From the NCBI GenBank assembly GCA_002689465.1, contig NZGJ01000012.1:2270-39307 (forward strand): a stretch of 37,038 bases of DNA. The letters are read 5' to 3'. Made by a program: the position numbers and the translations under genes. Below the pieces are notes generated by a model. The model was not told the DNA's origin, made no database searches, and was given only the letters and a program-made list of their open reading frames with translations. Shown piece by piece: positions 700-17,309 of this stretch. The first letter of the stretch is position 1; every line of letters begins with the position of its first letter. This stretch comes from Rhodospirillaceae bacterium (GTDB taxonomy: Bacteria; Pseudomonadota; Alphaproteobacteria; MPNO01; UBA830).

Positions 700-749
700 C
701 CGTGTCCACAGTGCGCCTACCGCGCAACAGCAGACATAGGAGCATCACT

Positions 750-1562
750 ATGGCCGACATGAAGATCGGGATTATCGGCGCCGGGGGGCGCATGGGACAA
801 GCTTGCATCCGTCAAGTCACCGATACCGAGGGCTGCGGAGTTGTCGCCGCCTGCGACATAGCGGGTTCAGCCCTGATCGGACAGGACGCAGGCAACATAG
901 CCGGAGTTGACCGTCTGGGCATTGCAGTTAGCGACAATGCCGGCGCAGTCATCGCAGCCTCCGACGCCATTATCGAATTCACTCTGCCCGAACCGACGGT
1001 AAGTCATGTCGCGCTGACCGCGGAGGCCAGCGTCGCGCACATCATCGGCACCACTGGCATGGAAGCCGCGCAAGAAGATACGCTTAGAGCGGCGGGCGAC
1101 AAAACCGTTATCATGCACGCACCAAATATGAGCCTTGCAGTTAATCTTCTGTTTGCCTTGACTAAGCAGGTCGCCGCCACACTAAACGAAGATTTCGATA
1201 TCGAAATCTTCGAGATGCATCACAAACACAAGGTCGATGCGCCATCCGGCACCGCCGTCGGCATGGGCCGAGCCGCAGCCGAAGGGCGCGGAGTGGAGCT
1301 CGAAGACGTCGCCCAATGGGCGCGGAACGGCATCACCGGCGAACGTAAACGTGGCGATATTGGGTTCGCGTCTCTGCGCGGCGGAAATGTGATCGGCGAT
1401 CACACGGCGACCTTCGCGGTAGAGGACGAACGCCTCGAAATCAGCCACAAGGCGCAGTCGCGCCAGATTTTCGCACGCGGGGCGGTGCATGCGGCGCTGT
1501 GGTCAGCGGGTAAAAAGCCAGGTTTTTATACGATGTTCGACGTGCTCGGAATCGAGTACTGA
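750..1562 (+). CDS. dapB: 4-hydroxy-tetrahydrodipicolinate reductase (DapB)
   Basis: This cytoplasmic enzyme reduces hydroxy-tetrahydrodipicolinate with NAD(P)H in the diaminopimelate/lysine pathway. The 270-residue length is normal for the family. An N-terminal Rossmann motif, GIIGAGGRMG (residues 7-16), binds the nucleotide. The family signature EMHHKHKVDAPSGTA (155-169) includes the expected catalytic His157 and Lys161 and the substrate-binding SGT. ATG at 750 is preferred because TAGGAG lies 7-8 bases upstream; an in-frame frame extends to 702 but lacks a ribosome site. In many alphaproteobacteria dapB sits next to dnaJ; here dnaKJ are about 18 kb away. Confidence 0.97.
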   Translation: MADMKIGIIGAGGRMGQACIRQVTDTEGCGVVAACDIAGSALIGQDAGNIAGVDRLGIAVSDNAGAVIAASDAIIEFTLPEPTVSHVALTAEASVAHIIGTTGMEAAQEDTLRAAGDKTVIMHAPNMSLAVNLLFALTKQVAATLNEDFDIEIFEMHHKHKVDAPSGTAVGMGRAAAEGRGVELEDVAQWARNGITGERKRGDIGFASLRGGNVIGDHTATFAVEDERLEISHKAQSRQIFARGAVHAALWSAGKKPGFYTMFDVLGIEY

Positions 1563-1589
1563 CCCAGCAGGCACCATCACCCCAGAAAC

Positions 1590-1633
1590 AACAAGGGCGG
1601 CACCAAAGAACCTAGGCCACCCTTGTTATATTT
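1590..1633. terminator. Strong hairpin between convergent genes, likely bidirectional terminator
   Basis: The 12-base arms at 1590-1601 and 1616-1627 pair with one mismatch (C1598/A1619) around a 14-base loop. An ATATTTT run follows on the plus strand. The hairpin lies between the converging dapB and the Ada-like gene, so it may end both transcripts. Confidence 0.6.
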
Positions 1634-1657
1634 TCGCGAATCATCGCTCGGCCGCGT

Positions 1658-2548
1658 CTACGCCACGGTAGCGCACTCCGCCTGTGCTTGCTCCCAACCG
1701 ATAAGGGCAAGCTTGCGGTCGGTACCCCAGCGATACCGCGAGTCGAAGAGTTTGGTCGAGCGGATCACCCGATGGCAGGGAATTAAAAACCCGATGGGGT
1801 TGGCACCGACAGCACTTCCTACGGCGCGCACCGCCGTCGGCTGGCCGATAGCTCGCGCAATATCGCCATATGTCACCAGCTGACCCGGCGGGATCGCCAA
1901 CAATGCCTGCCAGACTTTAATCTGAAAATTAGTGCCCTTGTACCAAAGCCGCAGCGGGCGCTCGGGGTCACCCCGGGCAGGGCCAAACACAGTTTCGCAG
2001 TGGGCCCAGGTCTCATCCTGCGCGCGACGGAAGTGTGCGCCTAGAAGGCGGCGCTGAATATCGGCCAGCGCTGCGTGAGGCCCGTCTTCCCCAATGAATT
2101 GCAGCCCACAAACCCCGCGGTCGGTCACTGCGACCACAAATTCCCCCAGAAAGCCCGGGTGAATGCCGTAGCGAATCTCTAACCCCTCGCCCATATCCTT
2201 GAACTGCCTCGGGGTGATACCTTCGAAATGGACAGGCGGATCATGTAGCCGCAACGGGCCTAACACGCTGGCTTCATGCGCGGCGTCGAGCACGGAGTCA
2301 GCCCGATCGAGGGCCCGCCTGGCATGATCCAACGTCAGATATCCCAAAAACTGCTTAGGGCTGACCCCGGCCCAGCGGATGAACAAGCGGCGGAAATGGA
2401 ACGGACTGAGCGCCGCAGCATTAGCAATCTCGTCAAGCCCAGGCTCCCGGCAAAAGTTCCCTCGGATATAGGCGAGCGCGCGTTCGATCCGGGCGAAATC
2501 CTGCGCTTTCTGCTGTGCCGTCTGGAAGACTATTTGTTGCTGCGTGAT
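1658..2548 (-). CDS. AraC-type HTH fused to O6-methylguanine-DNA methyltransferase (Ada-like), start codon anomalous
   Basis: The C-terminal half is an O6-alkylguanine-DNA alkyltransferase. It has the active site IPCHRV, with the acceptor Cys at about residue 258 counted from 2548. Upstream motifs include FQIKVWQALLAIPPGQLVTYGDIA and the conserved GANPIGFL. It repairs alkylated guanine by suicide transfer. The N-terminal half is an AraC-family helix-turn-helix (ARIERALAYIRGNF, LDEIANAAALSPFHFRRLF), so the protein is like Ada without the N-terminal zinc domain. The frame is open upstream to a TGA at 2561-2563, yet it holds no ATG, GTG or TTG before TTG 2386, which would cut the HTH in half. 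A GGAGG (2555-2559, complement) sits six bases before an ATC at 2548. An ATG at 2553 is out of frame and stops after seven codons. The start is therefore either non-canonical or broken by a frameshift. Confidence 0.8.
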   Translation of the reverse strand: MTQQQIVFQTAQQKAQDFARIERALAYIRGNFCREPGLDEIANAAALSPFHFRRLFIRWAGVSPKQFLGYLTLDHARRALDRADSVLDAAHEASVLGPLRLHDPPVHFEGITPRQFKDMGEGLEIRYGIHPGFLGEFVVAVTDRGVCGLQFIGEDGPHAALADIQRRLLGAHFRRAQDETWAHCETVFGPARGDPERPLRLWYKGTNFQIKVWQALLAIPPGQLVTYGDIARAIGQPTAVRAVGSAVGANPIGFLIPCHRVIRSTKLFDSRYRWGTDRKLALIGWEQAQAECATVA

Positions 2549-2801
2549 CTCATTCCTCCATCAGCTAGGCCAGGCTTCCGACCGGCCCACACCGATATCG
2601 TACGATGCCCTGTCAGAAAGCACAGTTTCCGGTATCGGTCCTGCGACAGACAAACCCGAGTACCGATGCAACCGGACAGATGACACAAAATACGAAACAT
2701 GCCCGAACGCTGCGCGGCAAGGCTGCATCGACCCACCCGATATTTGCGGTATCCGTGTTTCCTACGCCCCGCGAGAAGGCGAAGCAGACGGAACGGGTCG
2801 G

Positions 2802-3383
2802 TCAGGATGATTCACCAGCATATTCCGGATCAACCGCGTAATAAGCCCGCTTTCGATATTCGGGCGAGCGCAGATTCGCAAGCGCATCGGTCAGCGCATG
2901 GGCGAGCTGGACACGTTCGTCCGGGCTGAGAAAAGAGCCGATCCGCATGTATTTGCCGTGGCTCGCCAGTACCAGCCGGCTGTCATTTTGCGCCGACTCA
3001 TCGATGCTTACCCGCAGCCAGTAAGGTTGAAATTGATAGCGCTGCACCTTACCCAAAGAGTTGACCTTCTCGACCAGCAGGTTGTCCTGGGTAAGCCGAA
3101 CAGTTTCGTAGATCCGGGCCCATCGGTAGTTGGCGCGAAATGCCAGATATATCAGTGCGACATCGAGGCTAAAAAAACCCATTACCGGCCACGCCCCCAA
3201 CATGATGAACACCATGCCGGCGAAAAAACTGACCGATGCGATAGCCACCATCAGCAAAATGAAGCCTTTCGGCCTAAGGCTGGTATTAGGCCGCAGGGTT
3301 GCATCAAACAGATAAGCTTTTTTGCCCTTGAGAGGGTTCTGACTGGGCAGAGGAGGAAACGATTTATCCATGATATCAATCAT
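2802..3383 (-). CDS. DUF2244 family membrane protein
   Basis: The 193-residue protein has two closely spaced hydrophobic segments at about residues 40-60 and 64-84 (FILLMVAIASVSFFAGMVF and a following helix). A cytoplasmic-type domain containing YETVRLTQDNLLVEKV and YWLRVSIDE follows. This layout matches DUF2244, a family of unknown function common in alphaproteobacteria and often beside nth, as here, where it is divergent. The start may be the ATG at 3383 or the second Met four codons on (MDKSFPPLPSQ). The 240 bases between this gene and the Ada-like gene contain only weak, overlapping frames, and I see nothing in them. Confidence 0.85.
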   Translation of the reverse strand: MIDIMDKSFPPLPSQNPLKGKKAYLFDATLRPNTSLRPKGFILLMVAIASVSFFAGMVFIMLGAWPVMGFFSLDVALIYLAFRANYRWARIYETVRLTQDNLLVEKVNSLGKVQRYQFQPYWLRVSIDESAQNDSRLVLASHGKYMRIGSFLSPDERVQLAHALTDALANLRSPEYRKRAYYAVDPEYAGESS

Positions 3384-3504
3384 AGGGACGATTTAGCGCC
3401 GGAGTCGAGAAATAATGAACGAATGATTAACACCCCCGGGGTTCTGGGTCTGTTCCACCCCGAAGGGCCTTCCCTCAGCCGCGCCGTCCAGCTACAAATC
3501 AGTC

Positions 3505-4152
3505 ATGCGTGCCACCATGCCCCTCAAGGACGTCGACGAATTCTTCGCACGGCTGTCCGCCGCCGACCCAGAGCCCAAAGGCGAGCTAGATTACGTCAAT
3601 GAATTTACCCTACTGGTCGCCGTCGTGCTGTCGGCTCAGGCAACCGATGTCGGGGTGAACCGAGCTACAAAAAACCTGTTCAACGTCGCAGATACCCCAG
3701 AAAAAATGCTCGCACTCGGCGAAACCAATGTGCGCGATCACATCAGGACTATCGGGCTATACCGAAACAAGGCAAAGAACGTCATCGCGCTGTGCGAAAT
3801 GCTCATCGCCGATTTCGCCAGCGCGGTGCCGGAAACCCGAGACGACTTGGTCAGGCTGCCGGGGGTCGGCCGTAAAACCGCCAATGTGGTCCTGAACATT
3901 GCGTTCGGCCAACCGACCATGGCCGTCGACACCCATATTTTCCGGATCGGCAACCGCACCGGTATGGCACCGGGTAAAACCGCCCAACATGTAGAAGACA
4001 AGTTGGTCAAACGCATTCCCGCCAAGTGGATGGATCATGGCCACCACTGGCTGATCCTGCACGGCCGATATGTGTGCAAGGCTCGAAAGCCGGACTGCCC
4101 TGACTGCACTGTCGCCGATCTCTGTCGCTTCAAAGCGAAGACGGCGGGATAG
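3505..4152 (+). CDS. nth: Endonuclease III, [4Fe-4S] base-excision DNA glycosylase
   Basis: The enzyme removes oxidised pyrimidines and cleaves the abasic strand. The 215 residues are normal for the family. The helix-hairpin-helix LPGVGRKTA carries the expected catalytic Lys124, and VDTH carries the catalytic Asp142. The C-terminal cluster ligands follow the exact C-x6-C-x2-C-x5-C spacing (Cys191, 198, 201, 207). Met1 (3505) and Met5 (3517) are both possible starts. The gene diverges from DUF2244 across about 120 bases, which should hold both promoters. Confidence 0.97.
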   Translation: MRATMPLKDVDEFFARLSAADPEPKGELDYVNEFTLLVAVVLSAQATDVGVNRATKNLFNVADTPEKMLALGETNVRDHIRTIGLYRNKAKNVIALCEMLIADFASAVPETRDDLVRLPGVGRKTANVVLNIAFGQPTMAVDTHIFRIGNRTGMAPGKTAQHVEDKLVKRIPAKWMDHGHHWLILHGRYVCKARKPDCPDCTVADLCRFKAKTAG

Positions 4153-4170
4153 AGCAGTCAGAATTAGCTC

Positions 4171-4725
4171 ATGTACCTCGCGCGCCACGGCCAGACGATG
4201 TTCAACGTTGTCTTCGGCGAAACCAAGCGGGATCCCGGTATCGAAGACCCGCCGCTAACCGAACTCGGGTTCAAGCAGGCCGCCGAACTGGCCGAACGCC
4301 TCGTTGAGCTCGATATCCGACGCATCATTGCCAGTCCCTATACCCGCGCACTGCAGACGGCACGCATAGTCGCCAACCGGCTCGACGTGCCGGTAACGAT
4401 CGAGGCAGACGTACGCGAACGCACCGCCTATATCTGCGATGTCGGCGCCGTGACCAGTGAGCTGGCTGCCAACTGGCCACATCTCGATTTCGATAATCTA
4501 GAGGAGGTCTGGTGGAACCGCGAGGAAGAAACCATTTCCAAGTTCCACGACCGTTGTTCCACATTCCGGACGCGCATGGCGGCGCTCCCTGACTGGCGGC
4601 ACGTCGCCATCATCACCCATTGGGGGTTCGTGCGATCGATGACCGGCAAGCGCATAGGAAATGCGGGGTTGGTGGCCTGCGATCCAACCGAACCGCACCC
4701 GCCGCTGGATACGACTTGGCCCTGA
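4171..4725 (+). CDS. Histidine phosphatase (phosphoglycerate-mutase-like) family protein
   Basis: The 184 residues begin directly with the phosphohistidine motif ARHGQT (Arg5, His6). Other conserved positions follow: Arg59 in SPYTRALQTA, an RE pair near 82-83, and the second catalytic His150 in IITHWGFVR. These mark an active member of the RHG/histidine phosphatase superfamily. The substrate cannot be told from sequence; candidates include sugar phosphates, nucleotide phosphates or protein phosphohistidine. The gene starts 18 bases after the nth stop and could be co-transcribed with it. The ribosome site is weak. Confidence 0.88.
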   Translation: MYLARHGQTMFNVVFGETKRDPGIEDPPLTELGFKQAAELAERLVELDIRRIIASPYTRALQTARIVANRLDVPVTIEADVRERTAYICDVGAVTSELAANWPHLDFDNLEEVWWNREEETISKFHDRCSTFRTRMAALPDWRHVAIITHWGFVRSMTGKRIGNAGLVACDPTEPHPPLDTTWP

Positions 4726-4922
4726 TTTCCCCAATTTTCCACCTCGTTGTCACTCGGGTCTATCCTCCAATCCGCTCAGCCTTTTCCGCACGACCCCGAC
4801 AAGCTTAGCCCCGGGATAAATTAGGATGGTAGGTGTATGTGAGACGAATCAACCGCCACTAATATTGTTTCACATCAGTATCCGTGATAGCCACAACCGT
4901 AGCAGTCACAGCGGAGCAAAAA

Positions 4923-5423
4923 ATGGCCGATAACGACATTCCCCTTGAAAGCGACGCCAATACCGCGGGCGATAACAGCGAGATGGACAGCGCGCCCTTC
5001 ATGATCGGGGCGCAGTACATTAAGGATTTTTCGTTCGAAAACCCGCGCGGTATCGAGACCCTTTCAGCAATTCAAGACAACCCGGATGTTAGCGTCGATG
5101 TTAGCACCAATGCCCGCGCCATCGGCGAAGAAGGCATGTATGAAGTGCTGCTGTTTATCCGGGCCGAGGCCCAGGTCGAAGATAACCCCGTTTTTATTGT
5201 TGAACTGACCTATGGGGGCGTCGTTCAGGTCGGCGGCATACCAGAGGAAGAAATCAAACCCGTGGTGCTGATAGAGGGCCCGCGGCACCTTTTCCCATTT
5301 GCCCGCTCAATAGTTTCCAATGCAGTCCGCGACGGCGGCTTCCCACCACTTTTGATCAACCCGATCGATTTCGGCACGTTGTATGTTGAGCAACACGTAG
5401 ACTCAAACGGCTCTGATATCTAA
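4923..5423 (+). CDS. secB: Protein-export chaperone SecB
   Basis: SecB is a cytoplasmic tetrameric chaperone that keeps precursor proteins unfolded and delivers them to SecA. The 166 residues show the family core: IGAQYIKDFSFENP near the N terminus, a central AEAQVEDNPVFIVELTYGG, and a C-terminal HLFPFARSIVSNAVRDGGFPPLLINPIDF. ATG 4923 is chosen because GGAG lies 8 bases upstream and the family begins near here; a frame to GTG 4884 is open but has no ribosome site. It converges on dnaQ, the usual alphaproteobacterial pairing. Confidence 0.96.
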   Translation: MADNDIPLESDANTAGDNSEMDSAPFMIGAQYIKDFSFENPRGIETLSAIQDNPDVSVDVSTNARAIGEEGMYEVLLFIRAEAQVEDNPVFIVELTYGGVVQVGGIPEEEIKPVVLIEGPRHLFPFARSIVSNAVRDGGFPPLLINPIDFGTLYVEQHVDSNGSDI

Positions 5424-7741: not shown

Positions 7742-8382
7742 GTTTTCAATACTCCATTCGCCCGCAAATAATGGAGCAGCAAAATCATAGGCAGACCCAG
7801 AATCGTGAAATGGCATCCGTCGATGCGCGAAAATAATTGCGCGCCAAGGGATTCAATCCTGTATCCACCCGGCCCACTGAAGGCGTCTTGGCCCACCGCA
7901 TCGAGATAAGCGGTAATAAATTCGTCGCTTGCATCAGCACGAACCTCAAGCGCCGCCCGATCAACAGCCTGCCAAATGCGCTGACCGCCGCGCGCGATCA
8001 CCGCATAGGATATTAAATTGTGGTGTTTGCCTCGGAGCATCTGCAACTGAGTTAGTGCCTCCGCGCGATCGACTGGCTTATCCAAGGTCTTCTCATCGCA
8101 CTCAAGCACCTGATCGCCGCCCAGAACCATTCTTGCCGGATGTTTGCGCGATACAGACATCGCCTTTGCTTCGGCCAGCACTTCGGCCATTTCTGTCCCG
8201 TTTGCCCCATCGGCACGCAAGCCAGTTTTAATCTCGTCCTCATCAATGTGAGGCGGCTCAACAATGTGCGGCACGCCGGCGCTTTCGAGCAACCTTCGGC
8301 GCGTTATACTAGCCGACGCAAGCACAATAGGTTCGCCGGAAAATCCAACGAAACGCTGCGGTTGCGAAGTCTCTAATGTCAT
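7738..8382 (-). CDS. maf: Maf-family nucleoside triphosphate pyrophosphatase
   Basis: Maf proteins hydrolyse non-canonical or modified nucleotides to monophosphates. The N-terminal LASASITRRRLLESAG (21-36) matches the phosphate-binding SxSxxR...L signature. The conserved Asp90 lies in GGDQVLE, and DKP and the SGPGGYRIES region follow. At 214 residues it is slightly longer than average because of an N-terminal extension. It overlaps ppsR upstream and aroE downstream by 4 bp each (ATGA), so three genes are translationally coupled. The sequence does not decide between the dTTP/UTP and m7GTP specificities. Confidence 0.93.
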   Translation of the reverse strand: MTLETSQPQRFVGFSGEPIVLASASITRRRLLESAGVPHIVEPPHIDEDEIKTGLRADGANGTEMAEVLAEAKAMSVSRKHPARMVLGGDQVLECDEKTLDKPVDRAEALTQLQMLRGKHHNLISYAVIARGGQRIWQAVDRAALEVRADASDEFITAYLDAVGQDAFSGPGGYRIESLGAQLFSRIDGCHFTILGLPMILLLHYLRANGVLKT

Positions 8383-9212
8383 GTTTCGCCCGTATTGGTC
8401 TCGTCATGAAACCGGCTATAGAGTTGATAGATTGCGGCAGCCGTCTCCTCGATCGACCGACGTGTTACGTCAATGACTGGCCATGCATTTTTTGAAAACA
8501 ATTTTCGTGCATCGCTGATTTCAGCCTTTACTGTTTCGATGTCGACGTAATCTGTCTCGGGCTCTTGATGCAACATTAAAAGACGGTTCCGACGTATTTG
8601 GATCAAGCGATCAGCGGACGCCGTCAAACCAATAACACTGCTGTTGAGATTAAACAGGTTTTCGGGGAGCGGGATGCCTGGCACAAAAGGAATGTTCGCC
8701 GTTTTCAGCCCGTAGTGATTTGCAAGATAAATCGACGTTGGGGTTTTCGATGTGCGCGACACGCCAATAAGAATCAAATCAGCTTCGGCTGCGCCCTCTG
8801 TCGCCTGCCCGTCATCATGGGCCATAACAAAATGCAATGCGTCGATCCGGTCAAAATACTCTGCATTTAGCGTGTGCTGCCCACCCGGGCGGTTCACTGT
8901 CTTTTGATTGAAATAGCGGGCGAACATGCCGATTACCGGTTCAAGTACTGAAACACAAGGCACACGAAGCCGGGCGCATTCCTCTACTAGAGGCTGGCGC
9001 GTGCGACTGCTGACCAGCGTAAACACCACCGGGCCAGGGTTTTCCCTGATGCCCTCAATTACCAGTTCCATCTGGGCTGTCGACCGGACCATTGGCCAGA
9101 TATGCTCGCGAGGTTCAACGCCCTCAAATTGAGCAATGCTCGCCCGCATAACGCCCTGGGTAGTCTCACCAGTTGAATCCGACACCAAATGGATATGAAA
9201 ACTCTCACTCAC
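8379..9212 (-). CDS. Pyruvate, phosphate dikinase (or PEP synthase) regulatory protein, DUF299 family
   Basis: Proteins of this family act as bifunctional kinase/phosphorylase regulators of pyruvate phosphate dikinase or PEP synthase. The 277 residues begin with the conserved HIHLVSDSTGET and carry the nucleotide-binding loop GVSRTSKTPTS (150-160), followed by PFVPGIPLP. GTG 9212 is chosen because family proteins start a few residues before this motif. An AAGGA lies only two bases upstream, and an in-frame frame extends to 9305 through the origin region. In Caulobacter this gene borders the chromosomal origin opposite hemE, as it does here. Confidence 0.92.
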   Translation of the reverse strand: MSESFHIHLVSDSTGETTQGVMRASIAQFEGVEPREHIWPMVRSTAQMELVIEGIRENPGPVVFTLVSSRTRQPLVEECARLRVPCVSVLEPVIGMFARYFNQKTVNRPGGQHTLNAEYFDRIDALHFVMAHDDGQATEGAAEADLILIGVSRTSKTPTSIYLANHYGLKTANIPFVPGIPLPENLFNLNSSVIGLTASADRLIQIRRNRLLMLHQEPETDYVDIETVKAEISDARKLFSKNAWPVIDVTRRSIEETAAAIYQLYSRFHDETNTGET

Positions 9213-9278
9213 GTTCCTTAACCCGCCTTTTATCGCCAAACCGATTCGTTCACAGCCGGACCAATTAGTGCACCAAAA

Positions 9279-9287
9279 TGGGGATAA
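9279..9287 (-). promoter_or_regulatory. Single DnaA-box-like site
   Basis: TGGGGATAA reads TTATCCCCA on the complement, one mismatch from TTATCCACA. It lies on the ppsR side of the presumed origin. Confidence 0.45.
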
Positions 9288-9378
9288 CTGGTGATCTTCA
9301 AACACTCAAAAAAAACTATACCCATTCTCACCAATTTCCCTAGCGTAGTTACCCCAAGGGTACTTGTTCTAACATAGG

Positions 9379-9402
9379 CGTGGATAAAAACAGTTATCCA
9401 CG
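9379..9402. repeat. Inverted pair of DnaA-box-like 9-mers
   Basis: CGTGGATAA at 9379-9387 and TTATCCACG at 9394-9402 are exact reverse complements separated by six bases. Each differs from the consensus DnaA box TTATCCACA only at the last position. The arrangement would place two DnaA molecules head to head within the presumed origin. Confidence 0.7.
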
Positions 9403-9656
9403 TAATACCGGCGGTTGAAAATCCTCCTGCCCTCGCCTGTGTGCATTTCATATGTAGACTTAATAAATTTCTACCCCTGAACGATTCACATTCTGAACCT
9501 GTCAGACACAGCCTGTGGACATCATATAATCCCCAATGTTCACAGGGCCTACTAACTACTCCTACCTTATTGATATTAGAAAATAATAGATTGGTATTTC
9601 GTGCAAGATACTGTTCGTGAGATATTCGTGCCATTGTGAATGGGATGCTCAAATAT

Positions 9657-10676
9657 ATGAAACCATTAATTCAGGCGCTAAAAGGCAACCGAGTGGATCC
9701 ACCGCCAATTTGGCTTATGCGGCAAGCTGGGCGATACCTTCCTGAATATCGTGCGGTAAGGGAGGTTGCCGGTGGGTTTTTAAGCCTCTGTTACGACCCG
9801 CAGAAAGCGGCGGACGTCACGCTGCAGCCGATAAGGAGATTCGGGTTCGATGCCGCTATCCTCTTTTCGGACATTCTTGTTATCCCAAATGCGCTTGGCC
9901 AGGACGTAAAGTTCGAAACAGGCGAGGGACCGCGGTTGCTTCCGGTGCGCGATGCCGAGGGACTCGCCGAGCTAAGCATGGATAATCTCCATCAAAGTCT
10001 TGCACCGATCTATGAAACTGTAAAACGCGTGTCGGCTGACCTGCCAGATGGTGCTGCTTTAATCGGCTTTTCTGGCGCGCCTTGGACCGTAGCAACCTAC
10101 ATGGTTGAAGGTAGCAGCAGTCGGGATTATCCAAATGCTAAAGCATGGGCGCTTGGCAACCCAGATGGGTTTCAGAGGCTGGTCGATTTGCTGATCGATG
10201 CGACGACAGAATATCTTTTAAGACAGGTCGTGGCCGGTGCAGAAGCGCTTCAGTTGTTCGATACGTGGGCAGGGGTGCTGCCGAAATACGCGTTCGAGCG
10301 GTTTTCCGCAGAACCTATTTGCGAGATCGCTCGTCGGGTCAAAGCAGAACATCCGGATATACCGATCATTGCATTTCCACGTGGGGCAAACTTGTATCTG
10401 TCGGAAATAGCAAAGGCGCCGGAAATCGACGCCATTGGGATTGATTACGCGGTGGATCCAGTCTGGGCGGCACGGGAAATTCAGCCCCATGCTACAGTCC
10501 AGGGCAACTTCGATCCAATTTTACTGCTGGCTGGCGGCGATCAGCTCGAGCGCCGTGCAGTGGAGATTGTCGAGGCGCTTGCGGAAGGGGCACATGTTTT
10601 TAATCTTGGGCACGGCATTCTTCCACAAACTCCGCTCGAGCATGTTGAAAGATTGATCAAAGCGGTGCGAGGATAA
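9657..10676 (+). CDS. hemE: Uroporphyrinogen decarboxylase
   Basis: HemE converts uroporphyrinogen III to coproporphyrinogen III in haem synthesis. The family signature PPIWLMRQAGRYLPEYR is near the N terminus. IGFSGAPWTVATYMVEG, DTWAGVLP and the C-terminal FNLGHGILPQTP are all intact. It is 339 residues from ATG 9657, which puts KPLIQALKG at the family N terminus; ATG 9645 and GTG 9636 are alternative in-frame starts. It is the first gene of a plus-strand hemE-hemH-hemJ cluster and its promoter must lie inside the presumed origin, so haem synthesis and replication start may influence each other, as noted for Caulobacter. Confidence 0.96.
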   Translation: MKPLIQALKGNRVDPPPIWLMRQAGRYLPEYRAVREVAGGFLSLCYDPQKAADVTLQPIRRFGFDAAILFSDILVIPNALGQDVKFETGEGPRLLPVRDAEGLAELSMDNLHQSLAPIYETVKRVSADLPDGAALIGFSGAPWTVATYMVEGSSSRDYPNAKAWALGNPDGFQRLVDLLIDATTEYLLRQVVAGAEALQLFDTWAGVLPKYAFERFSAEPICEIARRVKAEHPDIPIIAFPRGANLYLSEIAKAPEIDAIGIDYAVDPVWAAREIQPHATVQGNFDPILLLAGGDQLERRAVEIVEALAEGAHVFNLGHGILPQTPLEHVERLIKAVRG

Positions 10677-15505: not shown

Positions 15506-16480
15506 TTATGGCTCTAGAATGATTGATCCAGTAGTCTTCCGAGCAGCCAGATCGCGATGTGCGCGCGCGGCTTCGCGGAGGGAATATTTGTGGTTTACCT
15601 CGATTTTCACGTCGCCCGACTTTATCATTTTCATCACGTCGCCGGCCATTCTCCGCATGTTTTCCGGCGTATCGGCAAAGTGGAACAAGGTTGGGCGGGT
15701 CATCATTAGTGACCCCTTCTGCGCCAGGATACTGGGGTCGAACGGCGGGATTGGGCCCGACGCGTTACCGAACGTGACGAACAGTCCACGGTGCTGTAAA
15801 CAGTCGAGCGATGCGGGGAAAGTGCCCTTGCCGATTGAATCATACACCACTGGAACCATCGCCCCTTTGGTAATTTTACGTACCCTGTCGACGAAGTTTT
15901 CGCGACTGTAAATGATTGGATAGTCGCAGCCATGCGCTTTGGCGAGTCGAGCCTTACCAGGTGAGCCGACAGTGCCGATAACGGTTGCGCCCAGCGCTTT
16001 CGCCCACTGGCACAGGATCAGCCCCACGCCGCCGGCTGCAGCGTGGACTAGGATAACGTCATTCTTGCTAACTTTATATACTTGGCGGATCAGGAACTGT
16101 ACGGTCATGCCCTGCAGCATCATTGCTGCTGCTGTATCGTCAGCAATTTCGCGCGGCACCTTCACCAGTTTGCCGGAGTCTATGTTGAGGATCTCCGAGT
16201 AACAACCAGCACCGGCTGTCCCTGTGGCGACCCGGTCGCCTATCTTGAAGTTGGTGACGCCAGCGCCCACCGCCTCGATTTCTCCGCAAATTTCCCCACC
16301 TGGGGTGAACGGCATCGGCATAGGGTATAAGCCGGAGCGCTGATAGATATCGATAAAATTCACGCCGATAGCGCGTGCGCGCAAGGTAACTTCGCCTTTA
16401 GCCGGACGGCCGATTTCAATGTCGCGCCATTTCATAACCGAGGGGGCGCCCGCTTTTTCCACGACAATGGCTTTAGGCAT
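15506..16480 (-). CDS. NADPH:quinone oxidoreductase (zinc-free MDR family)
   Basis: The 324-residue protein is a medium-chain dehydrogenase/reductase of the quinone oxidoreductase branch. It has VNFIDIYQRSGLYP and PFTPGGEICGEIEAVG in the catalytic half. The NADPH-binding HAAAGGVGLILCQWAKALGA lies in the Rossmann half, and the zinc-binding Cys of alcohol dehydrogenases are lacking. Members reduce quinones or other electrophiles by NADPH. ATG 16480 is chosen for the AAGGA about seven bases upstream and the family N terminus MPKAIVVEK. It seems to be a single-gene unit. Confidence 0.92.
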   Translation of the reverse strand: MPKAIVVEKAGAPSVMKWRDIEIGRPAKGEVTLRARAIGVNFIDIYQRSGLYPMPMPFTPGGEICGEIEAVGAGVTNFKIGDRVATGTAGAGCYSEILNIDSGKLVKVPREIADDTAAAMMLQGMTVQFLIRQVYKVSKNDVILVHAAAGGVGLILCQWAKALGATVIGTVGSPGKARLAKAHGCDYPIIYSRENFVDRVRKITKGAMVPVVYDSIGKGTFPASLDCLQHRGLFVTFGNASGPIPPFDPSILAQKGSLMMTRPTLFHFADTPENMRRMAGDVMKMIKSGDVKIEVNHKYSLREAARAHRDLAARKTTGSIILEP

Positions 16481-16601
16481 GAGTTTTTCCTTTTTGATCG
16501 GTGCGTGGACTTTTTCAAGCCCTGTCGTTCTATGAGTAACGGGTGGACCACATGTCCGCACCGTTGTTGTCAACTGGTGTCTGTCAAATGTAGCCGGATG
16601 G

Positions 16602-17309
16602 TCAGGGCCCGAGGTTCTTCAGAAACAGCTCGGCCGTGCGGGAGTTTGCTATCTGTGCCGCTGCAGCATTGAAATTGTCGCCCCCGACTCGCGCAAATGC
16701 ATGATCGACATCCGGATAGGAGTGAACGGTTATCTGGGCATTGCCGCCAAGCGCGGTTTTGATCGTTGCCTGAGATTCCGGGGAGCAGAACCCATCAAGC
16801 TCTGCAAGGTGCAGAATCAGCGGATTTCTGATTTTCGTCGCCATTTCGAGCGAATCTTCGATCTGTACCGGGTAATATCCGGCGCAGGCATCTGCGTCCG
16901 TGAAACACGCTGTTGCGTATGCCAGACTGCCACCGAGGCAGTATCCGACGGCGCCGACGTTACCTGTGCAGCCACCAAGACCGCGTAGATGGGCAATCGT
17001 TGCTCCAATATCTCCGACGCTTTTTTCGAAATCGGGCAGGAACGCATTCATCAATTCGAATGCCCTGTCCCAGTCGGACTGGCTCTTATCGGTGAGCTGG
17101 ACGCCGGGTTCGATGCGCCAGAACAGATCGGGAGCAACGGCGATATAGCCGTTTTCGGCAAAGCCGTCACACAGATCACGTATGACCTGATTGACACCAA
17201 ATATCTCCTGAAGCACGACGATGCCTGGGCCAGCGCCCGATTCTGGCATGGCGCAATAGGCAGAAAATGAACTGCTGCCATCGGCAGCCTGGATTGAAAT
17301 ATCTGGCAT
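16602..17309 (-). CDS. Dienelactone hydrolase family protein
   Basis: The 235 residues have an alpha/beta-hydrolase fold of the dienelactone hydrolase type. The Cys124-Asp172-His203 triad is present (GYCLGG, ELDGFCSPE, DVDHAFAR), with Glu35 in LQEIFGVN. Classical members open dienelactones in chlorocatechol breakdown, but most genomic homologues have unknown esterase roles. No catechol genes are nearby. It is cytoplasmic, as no signal peptide is visible. It lies upstream of and in the same direction as the oxidoreductase, with 121 bases between. Confidence 0.92.
   Translation of the reverse strand: MPDISIQAADGSSSFSAYCAMPESGAGPGIVVLQEIFGVNQVIRDLCDGFAENGYIAVAPDLFWRIEPGVQLTDKSQSDWDRAFELMNAFLPDFEKSVGDIGATIAHLRGLGGCTGNVGAVGYCLGGSLAYATACFTDADACAGYYPVQIEDSLEMATKIRNPLILHLAELDGFCSPESQATIKTALGGNAQITVHSYPDVDHAFARVGGDNFNAAAAQIANSRTAELFLKNLGP

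Follow-up and report, generated by a model that had tools for sequence, protein, structure and literature searches.

A very probable Cori-type chromosomal origin between a ppsR-family gene and hemE in an uncultured alphaproteobacterium

The ppsR/hemE intergenic region and its sites

The window, the whole 37,038-nt stretch of DNA analysed here, corresponds to positions 2270-39307 of contig C3, a 99-kb contig of the source MAG (G000:C3:2270-39307). This MAG comprises 1.34 Mb in 55 contigs and is 67% complete. As predicted, the gap under study is flanked by a ppsR-family gene and hemE. On the left, a PpsR-family (DUF299/COG1806) kinase/pyrophosphorylase gene with a GTG start occupies 8379-9212 of the minus strand (PF03618, E 6e-89). 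On the right, hemE occupies 9636-10676 of the plus strand (URO-D, PF01208, E 4e-118). The original prediction set the gap at 9213-9656, and only the left end of that interval stands. The start of hemE is most likely GTG 9636 and not ATG 9657, because alignment of the start codons shows that the GTG start is kept in the family, with GTG or ATG at the 9636 place in relatives L003-L007, and that L005-L007 are without an ATG at the 9657 place. As a result, the gap spans 9213-9635 (423 bp). The nearest genes are transcribed away from it: ppsR, maf, aroE, coaE and a dnaQ-like exonuclease gene on the left, and on the right hemE, hemH, UPF0093 (hemJ) and the genes that follow as far as rho. The prediction had extended this orientation to all flanking genes, which does not hold farther out. 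The plus-strand gene secB (4884-5423), plus-strand ORFs lying within 702-4725 (dapB- and nth-like ones among them) and minus-strand ORFs at 15506-17309 all point towards the gap. An Rfam search of 8900-9900 gave no match.

The gap contains the three near-consensus DnaA sites that had been proposed, each one mismatch from TTATCCACA. The box TTATCCCCA at 9279-9287, on the minus strand, is conserved in six of six family members and includes TCCCCA, which we take to be the core of the Caulobacter W-boxes. The sequence TTATCCACG occurs at 9379-9387 on the minus strand, where conservation is partial, and again at 9394-9402 on the plus strand, where it is kept in part of the six family members. The latter box lies 115 bp from that at 9279-9287, and a box-to-box distance of 114-115 bp recurs at corresponding places in L007, L018, L024 and L027. 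A weaker box with two mismatches, ATGTCCACA, is found on the minus strand at 9514-9522, inside a block conserved in the family. DnaA boxes are clustered in the gap above chance: when the 423-bp sequence was dinucleotide-shuffled 5000 times, three boxes with at most one mismatch arose in 5 of the shuffles, and although the 99-kb contig has 18 such boxes, the gap is its sole 423-bp stretch holding three. The AT content of the gap is 58% versus 45% for the window. The expected AT-rich end is also present, since positions 9550-9599 are 76% AT, a 50-bp value matched but nowhere exceeded in the window.

A GANTC (CcrM-type methylation) site at 9243-9247 is conserved in all six family members, and the total GANTC count is not above chance. 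The gap has no perfect IHF match; the best matches have one mismatch, for example at 9563-9575. Caulobacter-like repression, with CtrA binding within the origin, is a rival idea about regulation only and is compatible with an origin at this place. GcrA-family proteins are present in the source genome and its relatives, and one loose CtrA-like site, TTAACCCGCCTTTTA, lies at 9218-9232. However, alignment shows this site to be missing from the other family members, SciP (PF06627) was not found in seven family genomes (the source genome being 67% complete), and the single loose site contrasts with the five CtrA sites of Caulobacter Cori (PMC1914354). CtrA control of the gap origin is thus unlikely and not supported. 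CtrA sites do not define membership of the Cori type, since the origins of E. ruminantium and of one Wolbachia are without them (PMC1914354).

The unwinding module and its conservation

The hemE end of the gap has the layout of a basal unwinding system, in which boxes, spacer and trios follow one another in this order (PMC8287927; PMC10721633). The module occupies 9527-9599 and reads along the plus strand. It begins with two abutting boxes, TAATCCCCA at 9527-9535, with ATCCCC at this place across the class, and ATGTTCACA at 9536-9544 (ATATTCACA in L003 and L004). These are followed by a 4-nt GC spacer, GGGC (9545-9548), and by the DnaA-trio track CTA CTA a CTA CTC CTA (9549-9564), which is mostly 3'-GAT-5' on the other strand. 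The AT-rich tract at 9565-9599 comes last and is where opening is expected; the GC-skew minimum is at its edge (9566). The downstream box has two mismatches to TTATTCACA and three to the published reference TTATCCACA, and is separated from the trios by the 4-nt spacer. The upstream box, 13 nt away from the trios, has two mismatches to TTATCCACA, so a DnaA box with at most two mismatches is present within 16 bp of them. A basal unwinding system is further recognised by at least three consecutive 3'-NAN-5' trios; CTACTCCTA gives three, and five units are counted if a one-base slip is allowed. The slip and one CTC unit of the track, like the two mismatches in each box of the pair, speak against the origin reading. 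Strand opening at the module is inferred from this sequence layout.

A hairpin or mirrored trio array past the AT tract was also considered. Mean folding z was -0.42 relative to shuffles in 35 sequences, and for this reason no such element is claimed. In family f2 (L019, L024, L027), a TAGTAGTAGGTAG-like sequence lies near hemE beyond the AT tract as an apparent mirror of the trios (CTACTAC...GTAGTAG).

The gene pair and the sites between its members are widely conserved. In the first sample, ppsR adjoins hemE in 28 of the 29 relatives with the locus, and the remaining locus (L008) ends at a contig edge. Among the 118 loci of an enlarged set, 109 had a recognisable hemE adjoining ppsR. An alignment of the six family members retains, besides the 9279 box and in some members the 9394 box, the blocks TGTGGA at 9514, TCCCC at 9530 and CACAG at 9541, together with the CTACTA block and an AT-rich block. 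An order of ATCCCC-box, CACA, triplets and AT-rich sequence is found class-wide, in many alphaproteobacterial sequences.

The triplets were counted in a class sample of 101 non-redundant hemE upstream regions, with a track defined as at least four of five consecutive C-W-W triplets. Tracks occur on the hemE-sense strand in 34 of the 101 regions and on the other strand in none, with 1.85 expected, and unbiased counts of sequences with exact period-3 8-mers (reverse complement in brackets) gave 16 (3) for the CTA class, 13 (1) for CAA, 7 (0) for CCA and 4 (1) for CAT; both sets of counts overstate independence because the sequences share ancestry. Tracks have a median position of 94 nt before hemE, and the 8-mer classes have median positions of 79-106. 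By the strict C-W-W rule the window itself scores three of five, owing to its slip and its CTC unit. The triplets in the tracks include 62 CTA, 8 CTT, 53 CAA and 26 CAT, and about half are without a middle adenine, having T instead. In many alphaproteobacterial origins, for example those of L132, L151, L166 and L172, CAA, CAT or CCA takes the place of CTA at the trio position. Such triplets (3'-GTT-5' and the like on the DnaA-bound strand) fall outside the published NAN rule.

GC skew and alternative readings of the locus

Cumulative GC skew along the 99-kb contig is lowest at C3:11835, which is position 9566 of the window. This minimum is inside the gap, where the trio track gives way to the AT-rich tract. 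Mean GC skew on C3 is -0.067 to the left of the gap and +0.034 to the right, where it is weak and patchy within the first 30 kb. The TA-skew minimum (C3:10286) is 1.5 kb away from the GC-skew minimum. Since the MAG is 67% complete and in 55 contigs, skew can be traced along one contig only, and the cumulative-skew check proposed with the original prediction was run at that scale. Two relatives with better assemblies show a switch at the same gene pair. In G018, which has the same gene order, skew is about -0.10 over the 40 kb before the ppsR/hemE pair and +0.13 just after it. The genome of G035 is one contig of 3.74 Mb with ppsR at 3.606 Mb. Sampled skew in this genome has negative values between 1.8 and 3.57 Mb. 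It is close to zero at 3.635 Mb, and beyond that point, round to 1.4 Mb, most values are positive; the sign thus changes at about 3.6 Mb, and the opposite change occurs about half a chromosome away. A skew change near the locus in G038 is consistent but noisy.

The gap could instead be a divergent promoter region for ppsR and hemE and nothing else, with its conserved blocks serving as promoter or regulator sites and its boxes serving DnaA as a transcription regulator. The two genes are indeed divergent, Caulobacter hemE transcription is tied to Cori, and a promoter-like match, CAGACA-16-TATAAT, is found at 9503-9530. However, a promoter and terminator scan of the gap remained at chance level, with one promoter-like match against 1.3 expected. 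A promoter-only region also leaves unexplained the skew minimum inside the gap, the class-wide order of box, spacer, triplets and AT-rich sequence, and the switches in skew that relatives show at this gene pair. We regard this reading as improbable, and promoter function may exist alongside origin function. Still less credible is an origin beside dnaA with the ppsR/hemE locus as a relic, the outcome that would have overturned the original prediction: contig C10 preserves the dnaA-dnaN-recF-gyrB order (read from translations) that marks the origin site in many other bacteria, but it has no DnaA-box cluster around dnaA, and its skew stays negative over C10:20-55 kb, with no flip or minimum at dnaA (C10:51 kb).

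The position between hemE and a COG1806/DUF299 gene, the clustering of DnaA boxes, the AT enrichment with its AT-rich element and the GC-skew switch are features by which a Cori-type oriC is recognised, and these are all found at this gap. The original proposal of a chromosomal origin is upheld by the skew minimum at 9566, the switches in G018 and G035, the gene order and the conserved sites. The assignment of 9213-9635 as oriC draws on skew, box cluster, synteny and footprint. We estimate a probability of roughly 93% that the gap is oriC, at the same place as Caulobacter Cori, with opening by DnaA and trios as proposed below.

The two best parS-like sites of the source genome are not on C3; they lie 2 kb apart at G000:C14:25352 and 27422 (L044, L045). 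In family f3 (G008, G011, G013, G015, G019), 25-61 parS-like TGTTTCACGTGAAACA sites were counted per genome, versus two in most relatives. These sites are spread over many contigs and are often 37 bp apart.

Origin opening, DnaA residues and relation to known systems

DnaA would bind the boxes at 9279, 9379/9394 and 9514, and also the two abutting, weak, co-oriented boxes at the hemE end (9527-9544). From these a DnaA oligomer would be guided across the 4-nt GC spacer onto the bottom-strand trios (9549-9564) and would open the AT-rich tract (9565-9599). Helicase would then be loaded, and two forks would leave in opposite directions. Location, conservation, skew switch and motif layout are observed features of the origin, and DnaA binding, strand opening and bidirectional firing are what they suggest.

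How DnaA would read the trios can be considered from its residues. The DnaA of the source organism aligns to the solved DnaA chains 8btg and 8bv3, which we take to be the B. subtilis DnaA of PMC10721633, with residue numbers from our own count along the alignment. By this numbering it has Tyr at the Asn187 position and Lys at the Arg202 position, and Glu228 is unchanged. Tyr or Phe at the Asn187 position and Lys at the Arg202 position are shared by all 26 DnaAs examined (L001, L193-L217). In B. subtilis DnaA, Asn187 reads the middle adenine, and Arg202 and Glu228 read the guanine; a thymine in place of the middle base makes opening and initiation slower (PMC10721633). Tyr/Phe in DnaA and the missing middle adenine fit the hypothesis that DnaA reads the middle base less strictly throughout the class. 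We tentatively suggest that alphaproteobacterial origins use relaxed trios, 3'-G(A/T)T-5' or similar (CTA, CAA or CAT on the hemE strand), owing to Tyr/Phe at Asn187 and Lys at Arg202, though we would not give this even odds. The link between residues and trios is hypothetical because residue and trio type do not correlate within the class: genomes rich in CTA and genomes rich in CAA both have Tyr/Phe. The trios of the window are of the canonical CTA type. If the suggestion is true, the relaxed trio would be the deviant trio that was only suspected by Pelliciari et al. 2021 (PMC8287927). In the literature searched, which left out most subscription journals, we found no description of this pattern. 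It is possibly the new point here, comes from the relatives, and hints at unrecorded variation in how DnaA reads origin DNA. The class-wide replacement of Asn187 by Tyr/Phe together with a relaxed middle base makes the reading of single-stranded origin DNA by DnaA open to a concrete test.

As an origin, the gap is very probably ordinary and belongs to the known Caulobacter (Cori) type. It fixes where replication starts in a little-known family of uncultured Alphaproteobacteria and supplies a reference point for coverage-based growth-rate estimates. Caulobacter Cori lies between hemE and a COG1806/DUF299 gene, as does the Rickettsia origin (PMC1914354). With Caulobacter crescentus Cori the gap shares boundary genes, several reduced-match DnaA boxes, an AT-rich end and a GANTC site. 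In contrast to Cori, it has no conserved CtrA sites and no IHF match better than one mismatch, and its boxes are of the TTATCC type, not the G-box type. Boundary genes are likewise shared with the hemE/COG1806 origin of Rickettsia prowazekii (PMC1914354), for which the comparison is one of site types. Like the basal unwinding system of Bacillus subtilis, the module has two co-oriented DnaA boxes, a short GC spacer, mostly 3'-GAT-5' trios and an AT-rich tract. It differs in that both boxes are weak and abutting and the trios slip by one base, and the DnaA of its host differs from that of B. subtilis in having Tyr for Asn187 and Lys for Arg202.
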